Assembly: GCA_946803715.1 (NCBI GenBank)
Contig: CAMPET010000148.1
Span: forward strand, 146,356-175,579
DNA length: 29,224 nucleotides
Source: Beroe ovata
Lineage: Eukaryota > Ctenophora > Nuda > Beroida > Beroidae
Direction: 5' to 3'
Below are positions 9,241-29,224 of this stretch, one piece after another (positions within the stretch are counted from its first letter, which is position 1; every line of letters begins with the position of its first letter). Position numbers and translations under genes: made by a program. The notes under the pieces are model-generated. The model did not search any database. It was given only the letters and a program-made list of their open reading frames with translations, and was not told where the DNA came from.

Positions 9241-12048
9241 TGCGGTAGATATCACCCCATTTGTGGACAAGGACAAAAAATCTGATCATTCATGTACCCA
9301 CAAACTACAAATATCGCGCATGATGAACCTTAATAAAGTTTGTAATTTAATTTCGGACTATAAATTAAATAATTAGGTCCCTTTCCTAATGATGTTTGTT
9401 TAGAATCAAAAGGGCCGGCTATCCATATAAAATGAACATATGTATTTAGCTGTGAGTGTGAGAGAGAGGGAGTCTTTATGGTGAGCTCATATTGCGTTTC
9501 TTTTCATTTTATTCATCCTATTGTTTCTTGCTCCTTACATACTTAAATCGTATTGAAACAAAGCCTTTTCAATTTGGTGAGTATTAGCATCATATATGTT
9601 CTGGTTCTTCTAGGGATTTATTTTGTTTTGTTTAAGTTCTCATCCTTCATGAATACTAGAACTTTTTTGCTAAACATACTAGGTACCTACGTAGTGTCTG
9701 GCGACGTAAATGTTAAAATATCGCATACCTAGGTACATTTTTGAACGTTTTCAGTCGACTTAAGAAAAATTCCTATGAAAAACCTGAACCGAGCTAACGC
9801 CCCAAATGCGGCAAAAAATTTGAGGTGTTCCTTAAAAAGTTAAAAACGAATTCCAATCCTTCTTTCGGAGGTGTTAGGATACTACGAAATATTTATGAAA
9901 AGTTTGGTTTTCGCAAAGGTGGAATCATCTTCAGAAATCATGAAGGTCATTTTCTTATTTCTGTAAACATTCAGGAATTATGGTCAATGGATAAAAATTT
10001 TTGACATTTTATCAACATATTGGGTGATAAAACTACAGATTCCAAGTTTTTTTAAACAAATGATGTCTGGTCGAAGCTAGGTTTTACTGAAAAATGTAAA
10101 CCTACTTTTCTCTAGATCTATAATAAAAGTTGAGCTATATGTACTAAGTATTCGACATCTCGGATGATATAGAGTTTTTTCTTGAAGAATCATTCTTGCC
10201 CACCTCTCTCCGTCCACAAGTTTTGTTTTTATCAAAACACAGGTTATAAAAACGACCACTCCCTATTTCCCACATAAGAATGTCACGTGCTCAGTTTTGT
10301 TTCGAATTTCACTTTCCGAGGAAGAGCTATATTTTCCCAAAATAGCAACACCAGCAGCGGCCCTCGCTTCGCAACATTGCAGACACTTCACACCCTCTTC
10401 ATATGTATGCCTCCCTTTGGCTGGCATGGAATATAGCGACCGCGGCTACAGTTTATATCGTTACTTCACGCCTTTACACTTCGGTGGACAATATATATAT
10501 GTAACAACAACATAGTGTCGCTCCAGCTAACCCCTGACTCCGCGAGTTTGTGTTGACGGATATACGTGTTCTTATCATTTATAGCAACTCTCTTCGTTTT
10601 ACTTCTCTCATATAGAAGTAGGTCCATAGCTTTGCAAAGTTATGAAGATGCGTTGTGCGAGACATTTTGTCGTGGGTAGGAATTAGGAAATTTGTGCGTT
10701 TTTTGCGATCGCGCGGGATACGTCCAGTGTCCACATACTCAGAGTGCGCGCCATCCGTGCTTATCACTAGGTATATCATGTGTTGTTTTTTCACGAGTTT
10801 GCGCTCTCTTTAATCTTGCTGCTATTGCTAATGATGTTTCGTGGCATATAATTTGAGGAATTTCGGTGTGTAAAAGGAATATTTTCATCATCTGAATTAT
10901 TTTATACCTCATCAGAAAATGTACACTGTACTTAGATGAAATAGTAAGCTGTACTCAGATCCTAATTATTTGAATCCACTCGCAAAAATTCATTATAATA
11001 TTTTCTTTGAGAAGATTCTAGAATCTGTAGAAGTGGAACTACCTTTGTTTATAATTTCATTTTTATGTTTTTATTTTTTCGTGCGGTGGCTTCCATGAGG
11101 CCCCCTTGGTTCATACGTGACACACACACACACACACACATATTAGTATGACATGTACGTGACACGCGCACTGGTGCGTGCTTGACCTTCACAATGATTG
11201 TCTAAAATTTCCAATTTCCGGACAAAACAATGTGCTTTGCACTTAGTTCTCGGTTGTTCATTCCCTGCATTGAACATGCTGTTGATATATTTCATGAACA
11301 ATATCTTATGTGCCCTCTTTTTCCAACTCAGAAGTATCGTGAGTTCTATGATATGAGCTGTTAATAACGTTAAGTTGTTGTAGCACAGGGTTATTAACGT
11401 GTTAATTGCCAGCTATATATACTAGGTTGTTAACAGTTTCTGTTACACTTCCCTTGTCACATTATATATTGGGATATTTTTGCTATCTATAGCTGTCCGG
11501 ATTAGTTATATCTATAGACACATGAGATGCTTCCAAGTCCATACCTATGCTTATAAATCTGCTATTTGCGAATGCCGGATCCATGATTTGTACTTTACAG
11601 ATTATTTCCTCCTATAATTTCGCTCCTGAAATTCTTTTTTGTCACATATGGTCTGCAGCACATATGTGTGATGAAGTAATCATCACCATTTTCGAGTTAA
11701 TTGAACTTAAATGAGCTCATCAAAGGAGATATCTAATTAAATGTAGCCTATTACCGTAGTATTATATTGATGATTTTGTCTATCTGCTGTCTTGAACATA
11801 GCACACACACATTCGCTCACTTGGCTGGCTTCGTAGATATATTAACGCTTGTTACATTGCGGGTGCTCTAATTGATACTGTCATTAATTTAAGGAGTCTG
11901 TGCTTAATATTATTCGATTTATAGGTAAATTCATGACATGAATCTGTCGAATTAGTTTGAAAATTAGTAAAAATATTTCTGCAAAAATGAAATAAATTCG
12001 GAAAAATTGTAGCCATTTCTTCTGTCGTGTTCACGACTCTCTCTACAG
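9241..12048. other. Non-coding region upstream of V1
   Basis: Mostly AT-rich. 10290-10790 is richer in GC and CpG and carries short frames on both strands (a minus frame with ATG at 10779 reads MIYLVISTDGAHSEYVDTGR and on to a stop at 10579), with no recognisable product. It could hold a promoter or a 5' exon of V1. A short CA run lies at 11121-11141. Confidence 0.5.
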
Positions 12049-12074
12049 CTAAATTTTCAACTCCGCCTTATTCA

Positions 12075-12769
12075 ATGCCACGTTCTAATATGCCATCTCT
12101 TACGATGCCATCTCTTACGATGCCATCTCATACGATGCCATCTTATCTAATGCCACCTAATTCTCCCAGGATGAGCTGTGCAGATAGTGACACAGACGAC
12201 GCCCCCCTTCCTCCACCTGTCAAGAAGAAGCGTCGCAGTCGGAGTTTTCTTCCCAAGATATTCAGCCCGTTCAAACGAACACCCAAGAAAAACTCTGTAA
12301 CCCCATCAGACCAACAAATTACCTATTGCAAGAAAGACAATACCAGCAACCCGCCGAAAATCGAGATTTGCACGGCAAAAAGTGACAGTATCTCAATCAA
12401 ATCGTCCAAATCAAACTCGATCAGGTCGATACTATCGGGATCGATCATATCGGAGGATTGGAACCCACTCAACGGAATCCAATTCAGCACTACGTCAAAT
12501 CCGAAACTCACGAACGGATCGTCGCTTTCGGCATCATCGCCGCACAACAACAACATCACGAGTAGTGCTTCCCCCGTAAACGTGCGGATACACTCGCCCG
12601 CGTCGCGCGGCAGTAACGGACGCTCCCCGTCGATCGGATCGCAGTCGCTGACGGTTCCCTTCACGCGAAAGGATCGGGCGAACAGTAACATCTCGATTTT
12701 CACGGAGGAGGAGTTACCATCGTTCCGGAGCGGGGCGTACATGCCGGGATTTGCTAAAAATAGATTCAA
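12075..12769 (+). CDS. Alternative first exon V1 of EF-hand (calmodulin-like) protein
   Basis: Open exon of 231 codons plus two bases. The open frame continues upstream to a GTG at 12027, but the first in-frame ATG is 12075, followed by five more in-frame ATGs inside a pentapeptide repeat (residues 1-30, MPSLT-like). Then come an acidic/proline stretch (ADSDTDDAPLPPP, residues 36-48), a polybasic-hydrophobic stretch (KKKRRSRSFLPKIFSPFKR, 50-68) and a Ser/Asn-rich, probably disordered region. The end FTEEELPSFR...NRF is followed by AA and the donor GTGAGT. Joining phase 2 to the exon at 28120 restores a Lys codon and gives NRFK-QIFDMFD, which matches the entering helix of a first EF-hand. GC content is above the flanks. 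A pyrimidine-rich stretch ending in acag just before 12049 is a possible splice acceptor, so V1 could instead be internal. The function of the N-terminal region is not recognised. Confidence 0.72.
12090..12149 (+). repeat. In-frame 15-bp tandem repeat coding MPSLT-type pentapeptides
   Basis: Four consecutive 15-bp units, each starting ATGCCATCT, encode MPSLT, MPSLT, MPSHT and MPSYL. MPRSN before them and MPPNS after them are degenerate flanking units. Every unit starts with Met, so V1 has several in-frame start codons in a row. Confidence 0.9.
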
Positions 12770-12865
12770 GTGAGTACACTCGATCGGGATTTGCTAAAAA
12801 TAGATTCAAGTGAGTACACTCGACCGGGATTTGCTAAAAATAGATTCAAGTGAGTACACTCGATC
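12746..12865 (+). repeat. Three 40-bp tandem copies spanning the V1 splice donor
   Basis: A unit that starts GGGATTTGCTAAAAATAG and contains TTCAAGTGAGTACACTCGA is present at 12746, 12786 and 12826, nearly identical each time. Each unit holds the end of the V1 exon and its GTGAGT donor, so three identical 5' splice sites stand in a row. Only the first gives an open frame into the constant exon; the other two lie behind the in-frame TGA at 12771-12773. Confidence 0.95.
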
Positions 12866-13730
12866 GACCACACAAATATGTTTTGATCCCTCATATCATT
12901 ATCACAGTATCACACTTATTTTGATCACACATACCTATAGTTTGATGATACTTGTGTCTGCAAACTTGTGATGGTGTTTGTTGTGTGTTGTTACGTGTTT
13001 TGTGTGTGTCTGTGTTTTGTAACGTGTTTTCAGTACGACGTTATACGTTTTTTATTCTTTCGATCCCAGTATTAGTCTCATATCACGTGTTTTTCACATC
13101 ATAATATAGGTATAAGACGTGTTTCGTTGTAAGATTAAGACTATCTGCATCATCTACATTACACATACAAATTATTATGTTGACCACCTGTTAAACGCGG
13201 ATCGATTTTATAAACAACTGCATAATGCATTGGTCATTGCTTCACTCACTGGGCATAAATTACGTTTTTGTCAACATATGGCTGTCCAGTATTCAACTTA
13301 AACAACATCACCAGTTGCCAGTTGGCTGATGTTAACGGATCGTTAATCGTTTGAGATTTCTCCGTGATGATGTCGTATTGTAGTCGGTCTGGTTTTCCTT
13401 TCATGTTCCATTGATGGAGGGGCGGAATTGATATTACATGCCCATTTCCCGTTTTCGTTAGGTTATGGAATATATTGGATCCATGATGGCATATGATGGG
13501 ATATGATATAGCGCATCACAATACCTATGGAGGTCTGTACAATTATACAGTCCTCTGTCCTGCAGCTGATTCTGCATAGGATCAGTATCTCTACACTACA
13601 GCACTATACTATAGTGTCGACTCTATCTAGCCCTCATATAGAGAGAGAGCAGGCGTCCTGGTGTCGGTGACATGGAGATGATGATGATCAGTGCTGTTTG
13701 ATTATACCGCCATGCGGCCATGCGCCGCGC

Positions 13731-13804
13731 ACACACAAACACACACACACACACACGCACGCACAGACACACACACACTCAGACACACACACACACANAC
13801 ACAT
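13731..13804. repeat. CA microsatellite containing an N
   Basis: Imperfect (CA)n with CG and GA steps. The unresolved base at 13798 lies near its end. Confidence 0.95.
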
Positions 13805-14839
13805 ATATATGAAGTTCGGTTTTTTAATCACATGTATAATTAAGTGATTATAGTAGTGCACGATACGATATATGTTTGTCATAATAAGCTGTGCGCGCAT
13901 GCGCGTCTCTTATCATGATAACAACTTTAAATAACTAATTCGTCGTATTATAATACAAAGTTTAATATATTATTATTCGTATGGTTCGTGTCCTGAGACT
14001 TATGGATATTATAAGCTAGACCGCTCTGCTTAGCTTGGATCATAGCGGAGCTCTGGATGATAACTTACCTCAATCGACTGTAATATTCCTTTATTTGTAT
14101 GTGGCGGTATGCACCACAGTCCATATAGATATCGATTTGTGTAGAACAGGGGCGCGCAACGTGTGCACAATTTGTGCTGATCATACTTCACCTACTGCTA
14201 TTTTGATTATTGGATAGACTATAACTATCTACAGTACCCAGATATTCCAGAATCTAGAGTGTGATCTAGATTGCTATCCGGAGCAATATATGCTCCTTGA
14301 GTATCATAAATATTTTACATCAGTTTCGCCGTCACCTTAGTGCATGATATTGTCCAGATAGGCTGATTATGACCAAGAGCATTACAAAGATCATCTCTTG
14401 GGCTTTCAATTTTCACGACAACCCATCTTAGCGTAATGACCATCGCTGTGCGTGATTTGAATATCCTCAACTTAACCGCATGTGCGGACTCAATTAGCTG
14501 TACTGTGTACAGATTTTCGGTGAGGGATTGTTTGATGAAACCGACATTACGTAAAATGCCTGATAAATATGACGGTGTAAAGGATTGTCGGCACTTAAGT
14601 ATGCTAAAGGGACATATACTGATATGGATATCATAATTCTTCAAGAGCTGTTGTTCATGTTGGACAATAATGACCGTTAATATGAGAATAGTTTTTGTTC
14701 AATGTCCTCATCAAACTTCGGTAGATGATTTATACGAACTTAAGGTGCTGTTTTAGTGGTAAAGTTTAATTTTCATATTGATACCTAGAATAGAGGAAGT
14801 CTCTATCTCACTTGACCTGAAATTGTCTTAACTCTAAGT

Positions 14840-14886
14840 CTATCCTATTTCTTGGCAAGAAATAGGATAGGCAAGAAATTCTTGCC
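14840..14886. repeat. Two overlapping perfect inverted repeats
   Basis: CTATCCTATTTCTTG (14840-14854) pairs with 14856-14870 around a single G. GGCAAGAA (14870-14877) then pairs with TTCTTGCC (14879-14886) around a single A. The second palindrome reuses the CAAGAAAT sequence of the first. Confidence 0.9.
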
Positions 14887-15555
14887 CATTTTGATGGTTT
14901 TAGCTATATACTTCGCCAGCTATCAATTTCCAGCCGTTATCGTCTCCATTATTCATGATATAAACGTCATAAGTGATACAATCGCGCATAGCTTCTGGAT
15001 ACACTACTTCTGCATCGTGATCGGCGGAACTGTTTAAATCACTTTTAATAATCCAAAGCTCAGCAATTCTTTAGCCTTTTCATGATTTTCTTCTTACAGC
15101 ATTTTTAAAACCTCCTTCTTCTTCTATCGAATCCTTTACAATTTACGTCTTATTTTGTACTCGATTTTGAGTTCGTGACCAAGTATTATGAATTGTTTTC
15201 GAATATATTTTGTTTTCGTCACAAATAATTTGACAACTATGCTAGCCTTAAAACGCGCGTTTTGCATATGTTTATGAAATGTCCAAGGCGTAGTATTTGT
15301 ATGGTTCCAACATAAGTGTGACTGGTCCTAGCTCACTGCCTCCTCATATTTGAGTTAAAACTGAGTTTTAAAACCATATTAGCCCATTCCACACCATATC
15401 ATTATGCTAGCACGTGCAAAAAGAACCAACACGAATGTCAAGCTCAAGGAATATTTAAAATTTGTAGAACCTTATGTTCAACTTTTCTGGCAAAAACATC
15501 TGCCTGCGCCTGGCACATCCTATATGTACAGGTTGGAGCAGTATGGGCCTTGTCA

Positions 15556-15609
15556 CTCACTCACACACACACACTCACACACACACGCACACACACACAC
15601 ACACACACA
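15556..15609. repeat. CA microsatellite
   Basis: Imperfect (CA)n starting CACTCACTCACACAC. Confidence 0.95.
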
Positions 15610-16169
15610 GCGTGATGAAATCCTGGCTGATTTTCACACATTGACCCTGTTAATATATTTATAAATTTGTTTACGCCTCCCATGTAAAACATGAAGTAAA
15701 TATATAAAACTTATATAGTGTTAACATGCCGAGTTTATCATATAAGAAATGGTATTTCAATATACATATAAACCCCTCTCCATAAGGGGTGGAAGTACCT
15801 GTTATTATTTCGTTTAGCCGTATATATATTGAACTGCGCGCAGCTCTTCGTTCGCAGCAAACATATATATATTGTTTGTTTGTGCGAGTACCCGTCTTCT
15901 TTTTGCAGTCTACGCCGGCTAGCTGACCGCAGAGGACACTGTTCCAATATCATACACGAACTCATCAGACTGAAGATCATTTCGGAAAGGGAATCATCTT
16001 TGATATCGTCATCTTTTTCATCATTGCAGAGCAAAACGAGAATCAGATTATTTGCGTTTCATGCGCTACTTGGACTTAGATCAGTGACTAGGGTCATGCC
16101 CAACAAGCAGAAACTTGAGAAAAAGTTATAAAAAAGCGCGGATAATAGTAATTTTTCTCCTCGTAATTT

Positions 16170-16176
16170 TATAAAA
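16170..16176 (+). promoter_or_regulatory. TATA-like element upstream of V2
   Basis: TATAAAA about 180 bp upstream of the V2 start codon in otherwise AT-rich DNA. It would suit a promoter specific to V2, but such a match is common at this base composition. Confidence 0.25.
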
Positions 16177-16307
16177 ATTCACATTATCTGTTATTGTTTC
16201 GTTCGCATCTCGTGCACAATTGAGCTGCTCTAGCGGGCCCTCTGAGCAGCAGCCGGGAGTTAAATACTCACAGCGAAACGTGCTTCTATATTTCCTCGAT
16301 ACATACT

Positions 16308-16321
16308 ATATCACGTGATAT
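16308..16321. promoter_or_regulatory. Palindromic E-box ATATCACGTGATAT upstream of V2
   Basis: A perfect 14-bp palindrome with a CACGTG core, 37 bp upstream of the V2 ATG. Factors of the bHLH-ZIP type bind this core. A second half-similar site, GCACGTGTG, follows at 16347. Confidence 0.5.
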
Positions 16322-16358
16322 TGAACGTGATATATCCTTGATATCGCACGTGTGTGTC

Positions 16359-17125
16359 ATGAAACCAGACCGTCCCCCTCTCTCCTTCTCATCGTCGTCT
16401 CCTCCATCATCCCCCATCATGACCACTAGAACCGCCCCTAGCTCTCCTCCCGACATTAGTCTCGATATTTTCCGCACGGGATCAATTCCATCATCTGCTG
16501 CTTACCGTCCCTCCCCCTCGCTATCCAAGATAAAACGAGCACTCGCCAGTCTGACCGAACCTGCCGACCTGTCGTCAACGTTCCCCGATCATCAGTACCG
16601 GTTGTCGATTTCCGACGCTGATTCATACGACGAGAACTTTGATTACGATGTACGAAGACCTTCCGAGAGTATGAAAAAGAAGAAAACGTCGACGAAGACT
16701 ACGACGAACTCTAAGAAATCGAGTATTCCTGCATCGCCGGCAGTTAGTAATCACGTACAGGTGGTTGGAGAACGTGGTAACAGTACTGCTGCCAGTAACT
16801 CTCCGTCAAAAAGTGATGACCATGTTGTGACATCGTGTCATCACTTTGTTATGCCATCGAAAGCGTCCATATACTCCGCTCCTTCAGAAAAATCATCATC
16901 ATCCAAGAGCACGCGAAGTAATTACAGTTCTCTAAAACCGATCGCCAACCATAGTTCAAAGAGTAATCATTCGGCCCCCGCCCGTTCGGAGCCGAAGTCG
17001 GGCCTCGCTCGAAATCACGTGATACCGGATGCTAATTTTATCGGCGTTGATAATCTACTCCATGTCAAGGTTGACGGGGCACTCATCGGCCGGAAAATTA
17101 GTCCTCAATGGAGAAAAGAGTGTAG
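16359..17125 (+). CDS. Alternative first exon V2 of EF-hand (calmodulin-like) protein
   Basis: Open exon of 255 codons plus two bases, ending TGT-AG before the donor GTGAGTAC. The start is the first ATG of the frame; the open frame extends back to a TGA at 16221 without another ATG, and G stands at -3. The protein begins with a Ser/Pro-rich segment (residues 5-35), then a short basic amphipathic stretch (SLSKIKRALASL, 54-65), an acidic patch (SISDADSYDENFDYD, 83-97), a Lys/Thr-rich patch (105-120) and a long Ser-rich tail with DHVVTSCHHF near 154-163. The last 36 residues look more ordered and end QWRKEC. Phase 2 joining to 28120 adds Arg and reads into QIFDMFD. No known domain is recognised in this exon. 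It is GC-richer than its flanks. Confidence 0.72.
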
Positions 17126-17129
17126 GTGA

Positions 17130-17330
17130 GTACATTGAGTGTATACAATTGAGTGTACAATGTACGTTGTGTGTAGTGTGTGTAGGTACTATGTGTAAAC
17201 TATTGAGTGTACAATGTACATTGCGTGTACTATGTATGTACAATGTAAATTATTTATACAATGTACATTGTGTGCTATGTGTATAATATCGAGTGTACAA
17301 TGTACATTGTGTGCACTATGTGTATGAATA
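17130..17330 (+). repeat. Palindrome-rich minisatellite after the V2 donor
   Basis: Irregular repeats of GAGTGTACAATGTACATTGTG start directly in the first bases of the V2 intron. The core CAATGTACATTG is a perfect palindrome, complete in three copies (near 17214, 17258 and 17297), with variants near 17157 and 17240, so the RNA could fold into several small hairpins beside the splice donor. Confidence 0.85.
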
Positions 17331-17492
17331 ATACCTTGCGTATACATTTGCAGTTTGTACATGATGACATTGTGTCATGTACATGAGGTACATGAGGTAT
17401 TGTGTAATGTGTAGAATACTTGTATGAAAGTGCATGTAATCAATACATCAATAATTGTGCAGTGAATCTATGAGGTATACCTATTCCGATGA

Positions 17493-18978
17493 GAAATTCG
17501 AAGAAATTTTTTGTCGCACATGCAAGCAAAGACCAATTTTCCCATGTATTTTTGGACGCTGAATCGATTCCCGAACGAATTTCGGCCCTATCTTGCTTCC
17601 CTGAGATTTGAGAAGCTGTGTATCATGTGAGTGTGACTCATTAACTTCATGTCTGAGAAGAAATAAGAATTTTCCCCGATTTCCCAATCAGCTAGCTCTC
17701 TAATTCTTTCAGATTCGAATTCTACGTCAAAAAATAGGCCAGAAACACTATTTTTCAGTATGTCACGTGCAGAACTGATTTTGGCCTATTTGTGTGTCCC
17801 ATTGATTTTCGCGTTTTTGTACTGTTTGCTTCCCACGGGAGAGAAATCGTCATTTGGGCGTGGTTTCACGGCGAGTATGAACTAAACATGATCGTAACGA
17901 GGATTGATATTTGTAGTGTGAGAGTAGGAGAGATGATTTGGTGGAAAATTCGTGTCGTAAGTGCCGGTAAAGACTTCATTAGAGACCTTCGAAAATGAAG
18001 TAAAAAAGTGTGGAGTCACTCACTTCATTTTCTATCGATACTCCGATCAGAAATTCGAAGAAATTTTTTTGTCGCACATGCAAGCAAAGACCATGAATTC
18101 CCATGTATTTTTGGACGCTGAATCGATTCCCGATCGAATTTCGGCCCTATCTTGCTTCCCTGAGGAGCTGTATATCATGTGACTCATAACTTCATGTCTG
18201 AGAAGAAATAAGAATTTTCCCCAATTTCCCAATCAGCTAGCTCTCTAATTCTTTCAGATTCGAATTCTACGTCAAAAAATAGGCCAGAAACACTATTTTT
18301 CAGTATGTCACGTGCAGAACTGATTTTGGCCTATTTGTGTGTCCCATTGATTTTCGCGTTTTTGTACTGTTTGCTTCCCAGGGGAGAGAAATCGTCATTT
18401 GGGCGTGGTTTCACGGCGAGTATGAACTATACATGATCGTAACGAGGATTGATATTTGTGGTGTGAGAGTAGGAGAGATGATTTGGTCGAGAATTAGTGT
18501 CGTAAGTGCAAGTAAAGACTTCATTAGAGACCTTCGAAAATGAAGTAAAAAAGTGTGGAGTCACTGACTTCATTTTTAATCGATACTCCGAGAGAAATTC
18601 GAAGAAATTTTTCTGTCGCACATGCAAGCAGAGACCATGAATTCCCATGTATTTTTGGACGCTGAATCGATTCCCAATCAAATTTCGGCCCTATCTTGCT
18701 TCCCTGAGGAGCTGTATATCATGTGACTCGTAACTTCATGTCTGAGAAGAAATAAGAATTCCCCCAATTTCCCAATCAGCTAGCTCTCTTATTCTTTCAG
18801 ATTCGAATTCTACGTCAAAAAATAGTATGTTGCGTGCAGTACTGATTTTGGCCTATTTGTGTGTCCCATTGATTTTCGCGTTTTTGTACTGTTTGCTTCC
18901 CAGGGGAGAGAAATCGTCATTTGGGCGTGGTTTCACGGCGAGTATGTGGAGCCACTCACTTCATTTTTTATTGATACC
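17493..18978 (+). repeat. Three tandem copies of a ~550-bp unit (third partial)
   Basis: The anchor GAAATTCGAAGAAATTTTT recurs at 17493, 18050 and 18594. Units are highly similar with small indels. The third has lost about 25 bp near 18824 and about 125 bp near 18946, where the sequence jumps from GCGAGTATG to TGTGGAG. There is no N at the junctions. Short open frames on both strands repeat with the unit but show no recognisable domain. The array lies in the long V2 intron. Confidence 0.93.
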
Positions 18979-19606
18979 TACATTATAACCTCGTACAATA
19001 TACACTTCGTACATGATATACATTTTATACTCAACATTTGTACATGAATACATTCCACATCGTACACGGCACATATTTTACTCATTAGTTGAGAAGTGCA
19101 GCACTATTTCATGACAATGGGCTCGTCCTTGACCACGCCCTTCATCAATGCGCGGCAGAATGACATCACCGCATCTCTATGATGATATACTACATACCTA
19201 ATCGTGGGAAAATATTTGAACCATTTCAACGAGAATATATTTATACGTGGGTATTAATTCACACTCAGTCATTAAATTGTCTGCGCAGTCAATTACAATA
19301 ATTATTAATTGCTCAAATCACACTAATCATGACTTAGTTAGTATGATATACTCAACATCTTAATTGTTTAATTACTTAATTTTATATATATGAACGGTTA
19401 TTATTATTGGATTTAACGTCAGATTATTAGGTCTAAAACTTTTGTATTATTGACGTGGAGGTTATGCGTCTGTGCACGCTTTGTCGGCCGACATACCACA
19501 ATTATATGGGAATTCATGCTTTCATTTTCGGTTGGTAAATAAATCCTTCCAGCCTGCAGCATGTCTCGCCTGAGCGTCCTACTCCCACCAGTTCTACTAT
19601 TCCCCG
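18979..19606. other. AT-rich stretch without recognised features
   Basis: Nothing beyond short AT-rich direct repeats is visible here. Confidence 0.6.
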
Positions 19607-19799
19607 CCACAACCTTTCCTATCACTCTAACACTGACCACACCCCCTTTAAACCACACCAAACTTGACCACACCCCTTCCCTCCACCCCTCCTCCTTCCC
19701 CCACCACTCCTCCTTCCCTCCACCCCTCCTCCTTCCCCCACCACTCCCATTTTCTTGACCACACTCCCACTTTATTAACCACTCCCTCACACCACGCAC

Positions 19800-19950
19800 C
19801 CTCCACCCCTGGGAGCTGACACGTAACGTTTCGCTTGAGCGATTCTCAATAGTATGACACTCGGCCAAGACAACTTCTATCCACTCTTTCTCTCTCCCTA
19901 CCTCATTGTCGGTAAATTGCCGTATGGTATGTATGATGATGTTGATCATG
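19800..19950 (-). CDS. Weak minus-strand ORF inside the 590-bp duplication
   Basis: Reads MAEEAMINIIIHTIRQFTDN, then EVGREKEWIEVVLAECHTIE, then NRSS. The same frame is kept in the second copy (about 20430-20570) with a synonymous change, but there a TAA stops it after 46 residues. In copy 1 it runs on into the low-complexity tract on the complement of the ACCACACCC repeat. No family is recognised; it could be a fragment of a dispersed element. Confidence 0.2.
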
Positions 19951-20749
19951 GCTTCTTCAGCCATCCACCTATTATGTACCCGTGTTGTAGTTTAGATACT
20001 AATAGGTTTAATGAGATATAAATAGAATTGGGACACAGGACCCTTGTAAATAGTAAAAGGACCAGCTTTTCCTGAGACGAAGAAACGAGTAGATATGTTT
20101 GTATGAGTTCTCTTCTGACTTTCCTCTCTTTCTTTCTCAGTGTGAGTGTGTGTGTTTGTGTGTGTTTATGTATGTGTGTGTGTGTGTGTANCCACAACCT
20201 TTCCTATCACTCTAACACTGACCAGTGACCACACCCCCTTTTAACCACACCGAACTTGACCATACCCCTTCCCTCCACCCCTCCCCTTCCCCAACCCCTC
20301 CTCATTCCCCCGGCCCCACCACTCCCCTCCCTCCACACCTCCTCCTTCCCCCACCACTCCCACTTTCTTGACCACACTCCCACTTTATTAACCACTCCCT
20401 CACACCACACAGCCCCCATCCCTGGGAGCTGACACGTTACGTTTTGCTTGAGCGATTCTCAATAGTATGACACTCGGCCAAGACAACTTCTATCCACTCT
20501 TTCTCTCTCCCTACCTCATTGTCGGTAAATTGTCGTATGGTATGTATGATGATGTTGATCATGGCTTCTTCAGCCATCGACCTATTATGTACCCGTGTTG
20601 TAGTTTAGGTACTAATAGGTTTAATGAGATATAAATAGAATTGGGACACAGGACCCTTGTAAATGGTAAAAGGATCAGCTTCTCCTAAGGCGAAGATACG
20701 AATACATATGTTTGTATGAGTTCTCTCTGACTTTGCCCTCTTTCTTTCT

Positions 20750-20751
<2 letters not shown>

Positions 20752-20798
<47 letters not shown>
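20752..20798. repeat. TG microsatellite
   Basis: Long uninterrupted (TG)n closing the second copy of the 590-bp duplication. A shorter, imperfect counterpart closes the first copy at 20143-20190. Confidence 0.95.
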
Positions 20799-20801
<3 letters not shown>

Positions 20802-21491
20802 TAGGGAACAATTAGTGTCATCTGTCGTTTTCAGTTTACTCCAGGATGCAGCCGCACTCTTATCTACCGCTATAATTGCTGATATATACCGTGTAATGGA
20901 GTCTTTGCATGACGTGAGACGCAGTTCTGGGTGTGTGTTTGTGTGTGCTGTCAGTGTGTGTGTCAGTGTGTCTGTGAGTTTCTGCCATTCATACTTTGTT
21001 TTCATAGTATGCGATTTGACCATGTATAATCATAACAATATAGTTTGAAATCAAAGCCAATACATCCTTGATCCACGCATGAATGAAAGTTATTCAATAA
21101 ATCCCGACTGTTTGTTTCAGCCCAGTACATGATGAAAACTCGTATCATTCTTGGAGATACTTGTTTTACATCGTCCTACAGCCAAACAAACTATCTCCTC
21201 AAGTATAATGCGCACATAAGTATAATTATCTATATAAAAGAGACCTGCACTAATGTAAAGACTATTTATAATTATCCACATAATTCTGAAGTTATGATGC
21301 GTTTTCACCAGACATGCACGCTTAAACTCCCGTAGTAGAGAGACTCATAAACTCTCTCACTGTTATCCAGCAGTAGTTGTTTTGGTTTGAATTACCCGTG
21401 GATTTGGACATTTTTCAGTGCACTATGCCTACCATCCTTATGGCTCTTGCATTGTATCAATAGAATATATGCAATATATATACTGCAACAA

Positions 21492-21523
21492 TAATCTATT
21501 GTGTTTCATAACACAATAGATTA
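21492..21523. repeat. Inverted repeat, 14-bp arms, 4-bp loop
   Basis: TAATCTATTGTGTT at 21492-21505 and its perfect complement at 21510-21523 flank tcat. Confidence 0.9.
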
Positions 21524-21627
21524 GGTAGGTACTGAGCTCTATCTTTGGCAATTATGTTTTTATAACTATAAGAGTTACTTTTTTATTAGAGTTGCTATTC
21601 ACGCATTTACACGGGAACGATACTAGG

Positions 21628-21765
21628 AAACGGCCAAAAACTATTTTACAGGGGGCATACTACAAATAAGTGTTCCTGACCTATTTTTTGACTTAGAATT
21701 CAAATCTGGAGGAATATTTGAGCCAGCTCATCAGGAAATTGAGGAAAAATCTGATTTCTATATAG
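21628..21765 (-). repeat. Diverged, inverted relative of the 550-bp repeat
   Basis: The + strand here (for example CCTATTTTTTGACTTAGAAT and the following AATCTGGAGGAATATTTGAG) aligns with the reverse complement of the interior of the 17493-18978 unit over roughly 120 bp, with many substitutions. This shows the sequence is a dispersed family, with older copies outside the array. Confidence 0.75.
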
Positions 21766-22401
21766 GTGTATGTGAGTTGAAATTTGTAGAATTAATTTGA
21801 AGAATGTACTCAGGCTCTTTTAGAAAATTTAATCCCGACTGAGCGTTAGTCTTGCTTGTTGGGAATCTCAAAGCTTTCCGTATATAAACGCCTTTAAAAT
21901 TCAAGTTTTATCATGTGTACGCTGAGATATTATAGATCGCTTGATTATGGATGATTGTGTGCTTCGTTATGAGATCGTATATTTCCCATCGCTTACGTTC
22001 CGTTTACACGTTTACTTTTTGCAGTTGCGTTAGGTATATAAGTAGCCACAAGTAATATTGAGAAATGATGATTCAAATGAGCTAGTCGTTGAAAATAGGT
22101 GATAAGCTGTTGCTCAAATTCCACTTTTCATTGATATTTCCATGCATTCACTATTTCATACCGTATTGCATAGAATTCTACCGCCTGAATAAGGCTTATT
22201 GATAACTTCTTAGACTCTATAATTTCCAGACTTTTATAGTAATTTCTCGCTCTAAATTATCCCTCTTTTGTAATTGAAGCACTCAGATGAGTTCGTATAG
22301 CGTGCAAGGGCGGCCACCCGATTTAGACCGCTCACTGCATACGATTAATAAAATCCTCTGCCCAGTTATATGAACAGGGAATTGATAAAGTTGAAAAATC
22401 A

Positions 22402-22629
22402 CTATAGTTCAACGTTTCCATACCTTATTGTTATAGATCTAACAAGAACCGCCAGATTTATAATATAGTTTAAATCGGTATAACGCAGTAGCACGTCGTT
22501 GCCGCCATCAGTGTACGTGATCAAACTTTTAGGGTACCAGCTTGTTACTATAGATGGACCACTCGATGTACCAGTTTGTTCTTGAATCTTTCTGGAATGC
22601 CACAACTCTGTCACAGCTCCAAACTCCAT
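22402..22629 (-). CDS. Possible minus-strand coding exon
   Basis: The ATG at 22629 (minus) has a strong context, with A at -3 and G at +4. It reads MEFGAVTELWHSRK and on through YPKSLITYTDGGNDVLLRYT to SITI, then AG and a donor GTATGG. The frame otherwise stops at 22402. GC content is clearly above the AT-rich flanks. I recognise no domain, and the downstream acceptor is unclear. It may be an exon of a gene nested in the V2 intron, or chance. Confidence 0.3.
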   Translation of the reverse strand: MEFGAVTELWHSRKIQEQTGTSSGPSIVTSWYPKSLITYTDGGNDVLLRYTDLNYIINLAVLVRSITIRYGNVEL

Positions 22630-25052
22630 GTTGAATTCTACTTATGAGGTGTGAAATTCAGCACTTTGTGAGGGTCATTAGATAAATAAGGATGGAATTC
22701 GTTCCTTCCTATTACAGTGAGCGATCATCATTATGATCCAAATCTCTATGTTGATCTTAAGTTAGAATTAAGAATTAATTACTTGAATTAAAGTATATAT
22801 TAAGTTTAAGTATATTGAATACTTAGAGTATATAATATCATAGCGATCATTTGATCTTAAGTTCTCTAATATTTCATGAAATTAGACTAGCGTTTAATAT
22901 TATGATATCTTAGCTTGCCTGGTATATCTTCGTATACGATCCTTGATATCGTATAACTTACTTATATTATACTTGATGTGTAATTGTATTGAACTAATAT
23001 ACTGGACTGACTATTTATAATCTAAGTATGCGCGCTTTTATTAAACTACTATATTTGCGCTCAATACTTATAATTGAGATGAAGCACTGAGATGAGCTAT
23101 GACTACAATTACACTGGTTGTAATTGTATCGGGAACTGCGATCACCTCTAATATCATTGTTCATCATTGTTTACAGTTCAGCTTTTGTTCTGGACTATTG
23201 TTGTTAGATCCCAGCTCACAACCTACTTATAATACTGTCTTAAACTTCATAGCACACTTCTATAGATACTGTCTTTCTTTCACTGCTCCCTATACTCACT
23301 TCATAACACCATCTTCAATTTACTTAAACTTATAGTTATACCTACCGTTTCTTACAATTCGTATGTACTTACTTCTTCACGCAATGTGAGCTTCATTTCT
23401 GTTTGCCAAAATGGGGATTCATATGAAATTATTCGTCAAGTCCCTGAAAATTCTGTAGAATGGGAATCTGGAGTGCTGAAATCCTGTCATGAACATAATA
23501 TCCTCTGATTAAGTTCTGCATATCTAAATTTCCCTGCTTTAGTTTGAACTACAACAAATATAATATCCTAACTCATTCTCTACACTTCCTCACTCAAGCT
23601 GTAGGATAAGCTGACCTTTTTTTCTGTAGAACTCTTCTCAATAGGGAAATTGTTGTGAAATAAATGCCACTGCACAGTTTATTAATACACCAGTACAGCC
23701 ACGTGATAAGCAATGCTCACCTGATGCAGCAACCTACTTTTGTCTAAACGTGAATTTCACGAACGTTTGTCACGCAATCGATACCTATATCCATTTTTAC
23801 TGATTGTTTTTCGTCACGTTTGTATCCTCTCTTGGTCATAACTTTGACGCGGAACCCACGTGACTTCCATATATGGTAGTCATGTGACCTGCAATCACAT
23901 GACTCTCTTCTAATTAAATTGTTTTTTCATATCCTCGATGTGTGATCGTGAATAACTGCATCAAATATACCTACCTGTGTTTCTTCTTTTGTTAGGTACA
24001 GCTCTTTTGTCTTGAACCGAAACCAGCAGCTGCATTATGCTGATTCAATTCTCAATTTCCGACGAATATAAGAATAGGAGTGAATAGTAGGTGTATCTCT
24101 TATTTTCAAGTTTTCGAGTTTTCCCTTGGTTTTGGAGGGTCTTTATATAACAACGTTTTCAAGTACCTTTGCCTTGTCTGAAGATAATCTCTACCTATAA
24201 CGCTACCTGTATTGAAGGCGAAAAATATACATTTAGGAGGAAAATCTCAGGAGTTATACAGAACTCTACTGGTCATAACTATGTTAATTGAATTTAATTA
24301 TGTATACGTCATAGGATAAATAATTCCGCAGACCTTGGGGTAAATATTTTATTCACTCTTCGGATAAAAGTTCAGTAGCTAAAATAAACGCCGTTCCTAT
24401 GTTATTTCTATGAGAACTTGAACCGCTGTTTAATCAGGTTTTATTGATGATTTTTCAAGTTGAATAATAAATCAATGGACAATACTATTCCCCAATAAAA
24501 GAATAGGAAATTATGATTCATTGTTTCAATCATCTTTGATTGTTTAATCACCTCCTAAAGAAATCTACAATAGGAGGTATTGTATTCTTTACACGCACCA
24601 TCTGTTTCACTCTATTGTGTCCACCGCTGACCGCTGTGTGGAACAATTGGTATCCAACCCACTTGGTCCTCCAATCATAATATGATTCACTCTGGAGTCT
24701 TGACAATTGCTTTACACATGAGACCAGAGTCTATTCAATTTCATGTTCAATTCAGCTAAAATATTAGTTTATTTCTCTATTGTTCATGATATGAGCTCGA
24801 TTTACAAAATCTATGCCGATCAATGATCATCGTTTATTTGCGCACGAAGTGACTATTGTGTGATTCTCTGTGTGATTGGCCACATCGCGCTTGATGGGCC
24901 ACGTGAAAAAAATACGTTGAAGTTTTATTTATTTATTTGTGTCCATAGATCGGATATGTTGCATTGTTTCGGTAATCTCGGTTTATCTCACAGCTGACAA
25001 AAGGGAGGATTTAGCAAACGGATTGGGGATATTATATATCAGAATCCTAACC

Positions 25053-25094
25053 ATGAAAATTGGCGGCTCTCCAAGATCACAAACTTATAGATGA
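25053..25094 (+). promoter_or_regulatory. Upstream ORF overlapping the V3 start by ATGA
   Basis: A 13-codon ORF (MKIGGSPRSQTYR) starts with A at -3 and terminates at the TGA of 25092-25094, which overlaps the V3 ATG (25091-25093). The V3 start itself has T at -3. If both are on the same mRNA, V3 translation would depend on leaky scanning or termination-coupled reinitiation. Confidence 0.5.
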
Positions 25095-25740
25095 GGTTGC
25101 CCAAGATTCTGAAAGTTTTATCCAGGAAGACAAGCGATGATCCTAGCAACAATAGAAATGGCAACACCTCCTTTCCATCGCAAACGTATCATGGTGATAG
25201 CAAAGATCACGTAGTAACGCGTGACTCACGCGTGACGTCACACCATCATCACCAGGGCAACCAATCAGTGTCGCCGCCGGTCATGTGCAACAAATTGACT
25301 CGCAAGAAGGGTTCAGTTGGTAAATCTTCGAGTAAAGTGGAGGAATTCAGTCTGACGGACGTTCATTTCGACGATTTTGATCGGAGTTCGACGCGAGACA
25401 ATTGCCAGACTGGTAACAGTTACCATGGTAACGGATCTAATGGGAGTTACCATGGTCGCCGGAGTAAACGAAAAGGTAACGGCAGTGCGCCCGAAACATC
25501 AACTCCAACGAGCAATGATTCTTGGTGGCAAAACATAGCACTGGCAACTTCTCAATCGGTTGACCCACTGCGAAGTATCAAAAACGGTCCGATTGAAGCT
25601 CATGGTGTGACGCCTGTTTTACCCCTGGCATCAACCCGTGGAGATATCAAGGTATTCCTCAACTACAAGAAAATCGAAAATGAAAAGTGTCGGAGGAGAG
25701 ATCAACGGTCAATGGTCAATGAGGATGATCCGGTGTTCAG
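25091..25740 (+). CDS. Alternative first exon V3 of EF-hand (calmodulin-like) protein
   Basis: Open exon of 216 codons plus two bases. The in-frame codon just before the ATG is TAG (25088-25090), which fixes this start unless cttatag is itself a splice acceptor. The protein opens with a basic amphipathic stretch (MRLPKILKVLSRK), followed by Asn/Ser/His-rich sequence with DHVVTRDSRVTSHHHH (39-54), a Tyr-His-Gly repeat (GNSYHGNGSNGSYHG, 108-122) and a charged end (KKIENEKCRRRDQRS, then DDPVF). The donor is AG-GTAATA; phase 2 joining to 28120 adds Arg and gives DDPVFR-QIFDMFD. The LPKI motif is also present in V1 (residues 59-62). No catalytic domain is visible; the segment is probably largely disordered. 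Confidence 0.72.
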
Positions 25741-25765
25741 GTAATATATTTGAGACACCAAAAAT

Positions 25766-26020
25766 CCTTGACACCGCGTCTCCTTGACACCGGTTTCCCT
25801 TGACACCGGCTTTCCTTGACACCACGTCTCCTTGACACCAGTTTACCTTGACACCGCTTCTCCTTGACAACGCATCTCTTTGACACCGGTTTCCCTTGAC
25901 ACCGGCTTCCCTTGACACCAGTTTACCTTGACACCGCTTCTCCTTGACAGCAGTTTACCTTGACACCGCGTTTCCTTGACACCAGTTTACCTTGAAACTC
26001 CACTTACTCTTGACACCACT
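25766..26020 (+). repeat. Minisatellite of ~17-bp units (CCTTGACACCGG type)
   Basis: About 16 degenerate copies of a unit with core TTGACACC and a T/C-rich spacer. It starts 25 bp after the V3 splice donor. The TTGACA core is not a bacterial promoter in this context. Confidence 0.92.
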
Positions 26021-26343
26021 TTTTCCCCACAACTCTATCCCCCCCCTCGCGCCAGTCATCCCATGCCTGACTCCGAGTAGTCGGTATTCTTTGCGTATTG
26101 AAGTAGACTATATAATATGATATTGAACCTTGTGTTTGCCATCAAAACCGTTTCCTCGGTATAGTATACGGTATGATATATTTCCTTTGGTCATAATGGT
26201 AAACACTAAATGGATTGGTTTAATACTACACAAGCTTGCATTTTACTGCTCTTCTACCCACATTTCCTTGTTCTGGTCATTTCTTCGGGAAATTGCTCCT
26301 TTCTTCTCCTCCAATCGTCTGGAGCTTTTGGAGAACTCTCCTC

Positions 26344-26444
26344 ATGCATTGGACAAGACCGGGATCAATTCCTGCATTTTATATACTTTATCTCATCATC
26401 TTCGCTTACACAATTTACACGGCCGATATCGAAGTGGGTTGGAA
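26344..26444 (+). CDS. Possible short alternative first exon V5 with hydrophobic N-terminus
   Basis: The frame from ATG 26344 reads MHWTRPGSIPAFYILY, then LIIFAYTIYTADIEVGW, then AA and a strong donor GTGAGC at 26445. This is 33 codons plus two bases, again phase 2, so joining to 28120 restores Lys and gives EVGWK-QIFDMFD, just as V1 gives NRFK-QIFDMFD. Residues 9-25 are hydrophobic enough for a signal peptide or signal anchor. The frame stays open upstream, so an earlier start or an acceptor is possible. Support is the donor strength, the matching phase and the position between V3 and V4. Against it are its shortness and the other open frames that overlap it here. Confidence 0.42.
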
Positions 26445-26724
26445 GTGAGCGAAGATATTCCCCGGTTTTTCATAGGCTCCCCGGCACTGCGCCTTTTCCG
26501 AACTATCATAACTTGCACCACGGTTCATGATATACCAGTCTCGAGACTAACTACCAGTTACTTATCTATTTATATATTGGTCGAGTGTACTAGGTTCCCG
26601 TGTACTGTGCCTACTTTCTGCAGTTTCCGTGTTTATACTTAGTTTGCAATAGGATAATAGTGTCTCCGGGTGTTGTATAGTGCGTGTAGAACGGTTACTT
26701 CAATACACTGGTGTACTTATCAAA

Positions 26725-26803
26725 GTGGTGTCTGATAAGTGGTGTCTGTTTTTATAATAGTGGTGTCTGATAAGTGGTGTCTGATAAGTGGTGTCTGATA
26801 AGA
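26725..26803 (+). repeat. 14-bp tandem repeat (TGGTGTCTGATAAG)
   Basis: Five copies at 26726, 26740 (interrupted by a T/A-rich insert), 26761, 26775 and 26789. The core GGTGTC is the reverse complement of the GACACC core in the 25766-26020 minisatellite. Confidence 0.9.
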
Positions 26804-26861
26804 CGTGTACGTATGAGTATCGCAGATACCTGTTATGATGTGGATTAGAGTTCAGAATCGG

Positions 26862-26892
26862 GCTATTGGCTAAGACCGGCTTAGCCAATAGC
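26862..26892. repeat. Inverted repeat, 13-bp arms, 5-bp loop
   Basis: GCTATTGGCTAAG at 26862-26874 and CTTAGCCAATAGC at 26880-26892 are perfect reverse complements around accgg. It lies 260 bp upstream of V4 and could form a hairpin. Each arm contains a CCAAT/ATTGG box. Confidence 0.85.
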
Positions 26893-27154
26893 GTGGTTCT
26901 GGCTGTCGGCCACCAGTGGTTGCAGCTATAGCTTTGCAAGCTTTGATCTTTAGCTCGAGCAGGATTGAGTAACAAAACTTGCTTCCTGCAGCTCTAGATT
27001 TCTTTTTTCGAAATCGAATGCATTTCTCCGTTGTTCCTCTTCACAAGATTAAAACAATGTAACGTCACTAATAAATTACGTAGCCTCTCCCAATTTCTGG
27101 GCAGAATCAGGTTGAGGAAGGGTGTAACTCCCGGGAGTTTTTGATCTCGGGATC

Positions 27155-27573
27155 ATGACGGAAAAGAACCGGTCATCGCTTCTCCGTGGGATCACCCGAG
27201 CTGTTTCATATCGTATGGGGGGCCACTACCAGTCCCAATATCTGGGCCGAACATCCGCTTCCCAGGAACATTTAGTGGGTCATGGGTCAAATGTCACGTT
27301 TCACGGGTCGAATGATGATCATCATCATCATGCGGGGTCACGTGATCATTGTAATGGAGGGTGTGGTCATGTTTCGTCATTGGGCGAGGAATATGATTTG
27401 GATGATAGCCACCTTTATAACTGCGCGAGTGATGTGAGAAGTGGGACCGAGGATACACATTCGAGTGACTCATGTGATCAGTTATTGAAAATGTCACGTG
27501 ATCACACAATATCACGTGATCACACAATATCACGTGATTACTCAATATCACGTGATCANAATGATACTGCAAG
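27155..27573 (+). CDS. Candidate alternative first exon V4 with uncertain 3' end
   Basis: The ATG at 27155 has A at -3. The protein opens with a basic amphipathic stretch (NRSSLLRGITRAVSYR, 5-20), then Gly/His/Ser-rich sequence (DDHHHH at 54-59), an acidic patch (EEYDLDD, 78-84) and a SRDHTI hexapeptide repeat (114-134). An N at 27559 interrupts the repeat. A weak phase 2 donor (AAG-GTTTTT at 27574) would add Arg and join to 28120. Otherwise the frame runs on to TGA at 27623, ending EPNTRF, where the sequence resembles the end of V1 with the donor bases missing. Similar layout to V1-V3 supports membership. Whether it is functional, broken or misassembled cannot be decided here. Confidence 0.5.
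27492..27558 (+). repeat. 18-bp in-frame repeat coding SRDHTI, with CACGTG in each unit
   Basis: Four units of the type TCACGTGATCACACAATA, the last truncated by the N at 27559. Each unit encodes SRDHTI or SRDYSI and contains the palindromic E-box CACGTG. Confidence 0.9.
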
Positions 27574-27625
27574 GTTTTTATACCAGCAATCTCCTCAAAA
27601 AAGAGAACCAAATACACGTTTCTGA

Positions 27626-28119
27626 GTTAGCTTAAAATCCAAATGCAAAATTGACCCTGATATTATATTTCCGATTCTACCAATTCATCTATCTACCAAT
27701 GTCGGTTTGCGACCAATTTAGCATGGAAATCCTTGCGCTTTCTTGAGAATTACATACCTTGAGTATATTATGATAACTAAACCAGCATATTTATGAGTAC
27801 TTAACTGACATATACGAGATTTACTTTTGGTAATCTATGCGTTCTATTAAACGCAACAGTAATACTTCAGAATATATTGAATAGTAACAGAGCTATTATA
27901 GATCACAATATGCCTGATATAATAGATTGTCGGCCGTAGACTAAATCATTCGTAACTCAAACCATTATACATATTATTTTGAATTATGTTTATTTAATGA
28001 TAATAAATAATTACTAGACTGGAAATATTTGGCCACTAATTTTTCTCACATTTTCATCAATTTTAAGCAGCAGGTTCAACTGACAACAGTTTTTCTCACA
28101 TTCTCTCCCCAATTTTCAG
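27626..28119. other. Intron immediately upstream of the constant exons
   Basis: AT-rich, with no open frame of note. It ends in a pyrimidine-rich tract and the acceptor at 28119 that all first exons would have to use. Confidence 0.7.
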
Positions 28120-28238
28120 GCAGATATTCGACATGTTCGACAAGAACGGCGATAACGTGATTAACGTTGAGGAGCTAAGTGGGATACTCGAAATTCTGGG
28201 ATACTCTCCCACTGTGGATGAAGTCAGGACTATCTTGG
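28120..28238 (+). CDS. Constant exon 1: EF-hand 1 and linker
   Basis: Follows a good acceptor (ctctccccaattttcag). Its first base completes the codon begun by the upstream exon, then reads QIFDMFD. The EF-hand loop is DKNGDNVINVEE, with D, N, D, N and E at positions 1, 3, 5, 9 and 12, so it should bind calcium, although position 6 is Asn where Gly is usual. It continues ELSGILEILGYSPTVDEV, the calmodulin-style spacing to the second hand. The exon ends in phase 1 before GTGAGT. It has no start codon of its own: the entering helix of EF-hand 1 begins in the upstream exon, so a separate N-terminal exon is required. Confidence 0.9.
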
Positions 28239-28304
28239 GTGAGTCCACACTGGAGTTGAATCAAAAATGGGGCAGGAGTTTGTGGTTTTCCGGAAAAGGG
28301 GGGT

Positions 28305-28372
28305 TATTATTGTTGTGTTATTGTTGTCTTATTGTTGCGGTATTGTTGTATTATTATTGTGTTATTGTTGCA
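28305..28372 (+). repeat. TTATTGTTG-type simple repeat in intron
   Basis: Irregular triplet-like repeat of TTG and TTA units in the intron after constant exon 1. Confidence 0.85.
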
Positions 28373-28536
28373 TCGACACCGGCACTATTTACCCAATTGT
28401 CTACACCAGAAATTTAATTTCAAGTGACATAAGTTTCTTTATCCAACCTTACTGCCCATGGTTCCCCACTATGATATAGCACTTCCCTCCAAGTTTATTC
28501 TCAAGTGGTAAGCTTGATTTTGAGTCTCGGTTTCAG

Positions 28537-28643
28537 AAAGATTCGACCAGGATAACTCCGGGACGATTGATTTTGATGAGTATTTGATCCTCATTCAGCA
28601 TTGGATTGAACAGGATGAGGAGCAGATATACGAGGCATTCAAG
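28537..28643 (+). CDS. Constant exon 2: EF-hand 2 and inter-lobe linker
   Basis: Acceptor tctcggtttcag; phase 1 joining forms a Glu codon and reads ERFDQDNSGTIDFDEY. The loop DQDNSGTIDFDE has all canonical ligand positions, including Gly at 6 and Glu at 12. The linker ILIQHWIEQDEEQIYEAFK leads into the third hand and is about two residues shorter than I recall for calmodulin. The exon ends in phase 0 at AAG before GTATTTGTGTG. Confidence 0.92.
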
Positions 28644-28647
28644 GTAT

Positions 28648-28706
28648 TTGTGTGTGTGTGTGTGTGTGTTTGTGTGTGTGTGTTTGTGTGTGTGTTTGTA
28701 TTTGTG
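28648..28706 (+). repeat. TG microsatellite next to a splice donor
   Basis: (TG)n broken by TTTG steps, starting within the first bases of the intron after constant exon 2. Confidence 0.95.
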
Positions 28707-28857
28707 TATGTTGGTCAATTAGAAGTCTTCAGAAAATGTCTGCCTACGATTCCTGAGAAAATTTATGTACATAGGATCATATTAGGACGAGTATTCTGAG
28801 TGGGATTTGTTTTCATTCAAGAAAATCCGCCATTTGACGAATTCTTTCTTTTTAAAG

Positions 28858-28919
28858 GTATTTGACAAAGATGGGGACGGTTTCGTGTCAGCTCAAGAAC
28901 TAAAACGGGCCCTTACTCA
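28858..28919 (+). CDS. Constant exon 3: EF-hand 3
   Basis: Acceptor tttctttttaaag; reads VFDKDGDGFVSAQELKRALT. The loop DKDGDGFVSAQE is fully canonical (D, D, D, Gly at 6, Ser at 9, Glu at 12). The segment is very close to the calmodulin/troponin-C third hand. It ends in phase 2 (CA before GTGAGT). Confidence 0.93.
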
Positions 28920-29162
28920 GTGAGTAGGCTTGATTTGTAGAAGAATAAAACTACTGTCCTTTTTTTAATGCTGGACCCTCCAGCATTGCACGTCTATCTT
29001 AGAAAACTTGGCATATATATTGATCGAACCGTTCAGCCCACAAGTATATCGTTCACCTATGAGTACCACGCCAGTCATATTCCATTACCACCACCCAACC
29101 TCATTATTCACTCTTCATCGTTGGCCCTAGCTTCCCTGTCATAATGATTTCACGCTGCACAG

Positions 29163-29224
29163 GTATGGAGAGCAGTTTACGGAGGATGAAGCTAACGAGT
29201 TCTTCAACATGATGGATACCGACG
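29163..29224 (+). CDS. Constant exon 4 (partial): start of EF-hand 4
   Basis: Acceptor cgctgcacag; phase 2 joining restores Gln and reads YGEQFTEDEANEFFNMMDTD, the typical incoming helix of calmodulin's fourth hand. The window ends two residues into the Ca-binding loop, so the rest of EF-hand 4 and the 3' UTR are outside. Confidence 0.92.

Follow-up and report, generated by a model that had tools for sequence, protein, structure and literature searches.

A stretch of 29,224 nucleotides from the genome of the ctenophore Beroe ovata, hereafter called the window, was analysed. It is the terminal part of contig CAMPET010000148.1 (C148, positions 146356-175579) in a genome assembly of 77.8 Mb and 534 contigs. 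Close to the contig end, the plus strand carries the exons of a calmodulin-like core with four EF-hands and, upstream of these, long open reading frames (V1, V2, V3 and V4) that could each serve as a first coding exon of one and the same calcium sensor gene.

The constant part of the gene begins at the acceptor 28119/28120, which is preceded by 79% pyrimidines and followed by the reading QIFDMFDKNGD. Exon A (28120-28238) completes a K or R codon and opens EF-hand 1, exon B (28537-28643) encodes EF-hand 2 and the linker, exon C (28858-28919) EF-hand 3 and exon D (29163-29224) the fourth EF-hand; all four are on the plus strand and have GT-AG borders. Exon D is cut by the end of C148, and its last bases, together with exon E, which holds the stop codon, were read from the minus strand of another contig, C154 (locus L012). 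The core contains four canonical, intact EF-hand loops (DKNGDNVINVEE, DQDNSGTIDFDE, DKDGDGFVSAQE and DTDGDGVINYEE), and Pfam EF-hand_1 matched four stretches of a related protein, P0022. Short open reading frames (ORFs) found in other sequences, P0020 and P0021, enter exon A at the identical point.

C154 carries, on its minus strand, a second assembled copy of the final 1.8 kb of the window, 84-90% identical to the first, and we infer that the two contigs are two haplotype copies with overlapping ends. In exons A to C, 15 of 96 codons differ between the copies, and all of these differences are synonymous (15 versus 0 nonsynonymous), which argues that the core is under constraint.

Although its four loops are canonical, identity with calmodulin itself was rejected. 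Outside ctenophores, the proteins that bear the name calmodulin or calmodulin-like are 27-46% identical to the core. The core is joined to a long head, and its linker is two residues shorter than that of a Branchiostoma calmodulin domain. Furthermore, a true calmodulin gene, split by introns, is present at another locus (L028, C1:1043500-1046500), where four pieces match the Branchiostoma calmodulin domain at 78-91%. As judged from the sequence, the core is a calmodulin-like sensor distinct from the true calmodulin of the same animal. The nearest named proteins are from ctenophores, namely 'calmodulin-like isoform X4' of Bolinopsis microptera (P0027) and ACHWQZ_G001983 of Mnemiopsis leidyi (P0025). 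They differ from the window at 11 and 8 of 139 core positions, respectively, and their heads join the core at the same residue as proposed here. No relatives were found in the viral contigs searched.

In a search of the PDB, the best 60 of 572 matches were calmodulins, one calmodulin-related protein or calmodulin constructs, and most of the matches listed started one residue before Phe12 of calmodulin (numbered as in the mature protein). This places the joint between head and core inside helix A, so that each head must provide the residue equivalent to Phe12. This residue is Phe in V1 and V3, Cys in V2 and Ala in V4; the head of another relative, P0032, likewise provides Ala. P0032 is probably a Pleurobrachia protein, as its identifier is of the sb type, which PMC4488382 uses where it treats Pleurobrachia and Hormiphora.

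V1 (12171-12769, plus strand) comprises 199 codons and 2 nt and ends at the donor CAA|GTGAGT (12769/12770), V2 (16359-17125, plus strand) comprises 255 codons and 2 nt and ends at TAG|GTGAGT, and V3 (25091-25740, plus strand) comprises 216 codons and 2 nt and ends at CAG|GTAATA. All three are open and end in phase 2 at a GT and, once completed by the G at 28120, their last codons become K, R and R. The original prediction had described V1, V2 and V3 as long frames starting with ATG and ending in phase 2 at GT donors, and the acceptor 28119 as one that takes phase 2 and opens the first EF-hand helix with K/R-QIFDMFD junctions; the exon ends, phases and computed codons agree with both statements.

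Apart from V1, V2 and V3, which all give K or R, no plus-strand frame of at least 75 codons in the window leads from an ATG to a phase-2 donor with a score above 1. Among the frames of at least 75 codons listed for phases 0 and 1, all end at GTs within V2, V3 or V4, save for the one at 26196 (83 and 79 codons). The longest ATG frame leading to a phase-2 K/R donor on the minus strand has 68 codons. When the region 12000-28119 was resampled 300 times with an order-2 Markov model, none of the resamples reached 199 codons (maximum 169).

Of the V exons, V3 is the one for which a join between head and core is seen, in a relative. In P0022, an orthologue of V3 and the core are present in one uninterrupted frame of 366 residues; the contig that holds it has 1,231 bases, and we infer that it derives from spliced RNA. 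P0022 aligns with V3 plus core over 100% of its length with 58% identity; its core differs at 4 of 139 positions, and its head ends with DPVFR at the junction, as does V3. Tails of the V3 type are also found in P0001, P0024 and P0025, the head of the latter being shorter. When the head of P0001 was compared with the V exons, none of 2000 shuffles scored as well for V3, compared with 8 for V1, 842 for V2 and 885 for V4. Close 3' of the V3 donor, at 25765-26019, there is a minisatellite of about 14 copies of a 16-bp unit, TCCTTGACACCGCGTT.

Relatives further indicate that different heads are placed on one core. Heads joined to the core were found in P0022, P0001, P0024, P0025, P0027, P0029, P0030 and P0032. 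P0001 and P0027 (Bolinopsis microptera) show 0 differences over the 139 core residues and have different heads. Similarly, the cores of P0029 and P0030 are identical (0/139), the last 36 residues of their heads are common, and the heads are unlike before these. A short motif, [DEN][ILV]x[IVL]F, recurs before the junction, starting 28 residues ahead of it in V1 and P0027, 33 in V3 and 31 in P0001, P0024 and P0025. In a test of six heads, three of which (V1, V3 and P0027) carry the motif, it was never found in three of the six in 5000 trials with shuffled tails, though the motif was picked after the sequences had been viewed.

The search for proteins related to the V1, V2 and V4 blocks among 530 candidates (E up to 10) returned P0063 and P0064 only, both of them orthologues of V1. 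V1 shares 145 of 181 aligned residues with P0063 and 107 of 177 with P0064. All three sequences start with MSC and end with NRFK, exactly at the splice point. The start of V1 had been set at 12075; since both orthologues begin at the position equivalent to 12171, and an acceptor-like CCCAG lies one base upstream, it is very probably at 12171. A KKKRR cluster is kept in the three proteins and could be a nuclear signal, a candidate by consensus. The V1 donor lies in a 40-bp tandem repeat of three copies (12745-12866, plus strand), each copy with the donor GTGAGTACAC, so that donors follow 12769, 12809 and 12849. If left unspliced, the first of these creates an in-frame TGA, and only this one therefore keeps the V1 frame open.

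We considered the possibility that V3 alone is a head of the sensor and that V1 and V2 are independent, single-exon nested genes, whose apparent donors would simply be TGA stop codons followed by GT. Both V1 and V2 indeed end at TGA if unspliced, and the frames of P0063 and P0064 end at the same residue as V1 without the core. As head-only frames, P0063 and P0064 weigh against the model, because they would look alike whether V1 is joined to the core or is a gene of its own with a TGA stop, and the joining of V1 to the core is accordingly a prediction. In addition, hundreds of nested intronic genes are described for another ctenophore in an excerpt of PMC8527503. Yet a TGA is the inevitable product of any phase-2 GTGA donor. 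Furthermore, the V1 and V2 sites both read GTGAGTACA, and both have the correct phase with a K/R codon. The NRFK tail of V1 fits helix A of calmodulin (F12-K13), and this fit and the presence of the short motif favour the join of V1 to the core, the motif standing at the same distance (28 residues) as in the core-joined head of Bolinopsis. Finally, relatives do show different heads on identical cores. We consider separate nested genes to be very unlikely, and V1 and V2 would both use the acceptor 28119/28120 in this animal.

Among the V exons, V2 combines the longest frame with the best donor. Its similarity to P0022 (2 of 500 shuffles as good) is confined to low-complexity sequence, and the case for V2 as a first exon is one of frame length, donor and phase. 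On its 3' side, at 17461-18990, nearly three copies of a unit of about 545 bp were seen by eye. Further on, a stretch of several hundred bases appears by eye to be duplicated in tandem (19613-20040 and 20192-20690); where the two stretches meet, position 20191 is a single N.

The original prediction counted up to five first exons, of which V1, V2 and V3 are retained and V5 is not. V4 (27155-27573, plus strand) is probably a fourth first exon. Its donor, CAAG|GTTTTT, is weak (score -3.4), and a single N at 27559 conceals about 130 bases; C154 supplies these, and with them the frame is open to the same phase-2 site. Next to this N, C148 and C154 agree fully over 117 bases (27442-27559, 100% identity), compared with about 84-90% for the rest. 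On either contig one edge of the piece is marked by a single N, and the piece looks like a gap-filling artefact. On C154 (locus L013), past an N at locus position 1450, an exon-like sequence unlike the window stands upstream of the V4 fragment; it may result from a scaffold misjoin. V5, for which the original prediction gave no coordinates, is most likely 26210-26433, the longest remaining candidate (74 codons). It is of a length expected by chance, since 36 of 300 resamples reached 74 codons, and it was rejected.

The V exons could also be internal, V1 or V2 being cassette exons behind an upstream first exon that has escaped notice. For V3 and V4 this does not apply, because a TAG stands immediately 5' of the V3 ATG and the open frame of V4 has no phase-2 AG before its start; neither can follow a phase-2 coding exon. 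The open frame upstream of V2 contains four phase-2 AGs, none of them acceptor-like, which makes an upstream coding exon unlikely by sequence. V1 is the more favourable case, as its frame is open upstream with one acceptor-like, phase-2 compatible site (exon start 12170), so that a coding exon could precede it; P0029 and P0030 likewise hint at two-part heads in another species. In contrast, P0063 and P0064 begin at the same MSC as V1, and a scan of the 32 kb upstream showed no ATG frame of at least 60 codons that leads to a phase-2 K/R donor. A cassette arrangement of V1 or V2 seems quite unlikely.

The origin of the 5' ends is a different question. Rather than having a promoter of its own, each V exon might receive a spliced leader by trans-splicing on shared long pre-mRNAs. 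The choice of exon would then be a splicing choice; this is compatible with alternative first coding exons, and the two readings part only over the source of the 5' ends. Many ctenophore transcripts carry trans-spliced leaders: in Hormiphora, a leader is present on 56% of Iso-Seq reads, stated as a lower bound, and such leaders are widespread in the group (PMC8527503, in the excerpted text). Separate 5' ends need therefore not imply separate promoters. The acceptor-like CCCAG one base 5' of the V1 start would suit such a mechanism. However, the Hormiphora leader had 0 matches here, and its end had 42 loose matches compared with 32 in a reversed control, though the leader of this animal may be another one. 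Furthermore, no acceptor-like AG with at least 70% pyrimidines occurs in the 300 nt that precede each of the V1-V4 starts; about one third of random 300-nt stretches have one. On balance trans-splicing appears rather unlikely as the source of the 5' ends. A promoter for each exon, as inferred in the original prediction, found no support either and is putative.

Several other observations weigh against a single gene with alternative first coding exons. When codon usage was scored with a model trained on 8 ORFs (2007 codons), V1, V2 and V3 were each outscored by another frame of the same DNA. The number of random noncoding stretches scoring as high, per 1000 draws, was 2 for V1, 1 for V2, 16 for V3, 142 for V4 and 138 for V5. 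Since the proposed frames did not stand out by codon usage, this was rejected as proof of coding. Among the 530 candidates there was no protein relative of V2 or V4. When this genome was searched for the heads of P0027, P0030 and P0032, no match was returned (an empty answer that is not informative by itself), and for this reason species seem to differ in their sets of exons. The motif is absent from V2, V4, P0029, P0030 and P0032, and in P0022 it lies 41 residues before the junction. The 36-residue piece common to P0029 and P0030 may mean that some heads elsewhere consist of more than one exon, though the 5' part of P0029 could be a retained intron. Finally, shuffle comparisons of 24 pairs of heads gave no clear similarity for V1-V3 (179 of 500 shuffles as good), V2-V1 (395), V2-V3 (75) or V4-P0022 (232). 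For V3-V4, by comparison, none of 500 shuffles was as good, and paralogy among the V exons is accordingly weak or partial.

Taken together, the data point to one ctenophore calmodulin-like sensor gene with alternative first coding exons V1, V2, V3 and probably V4, all spliced to 28119/28120, a reading to which we assign a probability of about 0.85. That one such core has alternative first coding exons, as was initially proposed, is well supported by the join in P0022, by the different heads on identical cores and by the conservation of V1 up to the splice point. Each transcript would join a single first exon, from its phase-2 donor, to the constant exons. The start codon, the long head and helix A as far as the Phe12-equivalent residue, about half of the helix, would come from the first exon, and the four intact EF-hands from the constant exons. 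Head choice would depend on separate 5' ends, set either by promoters or by trans-splice sites, and the heads may give the sensor different locations or partners. The heads have 183-256 residues and are mostly of low complexity; no Pfam domain was found in V1, V2, V3, the 5' part of V4, P0063 or P0064.

The statement that the layout matches no described gene went too far, as KChIP genes and the UGT1 and protocadherin clusters share it. KChIPs are neuronal calcium sensors (NCS), members of another EF-hand subfamily, in which the first EF-hand is degenerate. Their genes (KCNIP1-4) resemble the present one by the joining of variable N-termini to one EF-hand core. This is achieved there through different start sites and alternative splicing, and 17 variants are mentioned (excerpt of PMC3973911). 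The core described here differs in being calmodulin-like, with a canonical first loop and all four loops intact, and the heads joined to it are 183-256 residues long. Membership of the KChIP/NCS group was rejected in view of this canonical first loop and of the calmodulin-type PDB matches (best 60 of 572).

In UGT1, GCNT2 and protocadherin genes, the first exons are clear paralogues that encode part of an enzyme or an ectodomain; the heads described here, in contrast, have no Pfam domain, and the V exons show weak or partial paralogy. What is alike is the array of alternative first exons upstream of shared exons, to which they are joined in those clusters (PMC1885805 and PMC3325998, both in excerpt); here V1, V2, V3 (and V4) all lie on the plus strand upstream of the one acceptor 28119. 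The gene thus shares the layout of the KChIP or of the UGT1/protocadherin genes and is not a member of these families. In CaBP1/caldendrin, too, the core is calmodulin-like, and its long N-terminal head is alternative. In CaBPs the second EF-hand is degenerate, whereas the four loops are all canonical here; a literature search on CaBP1/caldendrin returned nothing.

In the literature searched, which mostly excluded subscription journals, we found no description of this gene. A calmodulin-like match is mentioned in passing, without the gene being described, in the excerpted text of PMC4488382. Public annotation already holds a member of the family as a numbered isoform (P0027, 'isoform X4'). The type of arrangement is therefore known, and what is new to us is its use on a ctenophore calmodulin-like sensor, with heads that differ between genera.

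Ctenophores belong to an animal lineage that was among the first to branch off, and their nervous systems and cilia are unusual. We see about even odds for a wider interpretation, in which an array in the style of protocadherin or UGT1 puts many disordered heads on one sensor. Such an array would be old in the phylum, with heads gained and lost between genera; several heads would retain a short docking motif some 30 residues ahead of the EF-hands, and the targeting segment would be swapped, as with the putative nuclear signal of V1. More generally, a calcium sensor fitted with interchangeable heads by one locus would show how ctenophores share out a single sensor between cell types or compartments, and would be an example of an exon array with a nearly frozen constant part and heads that turn over.

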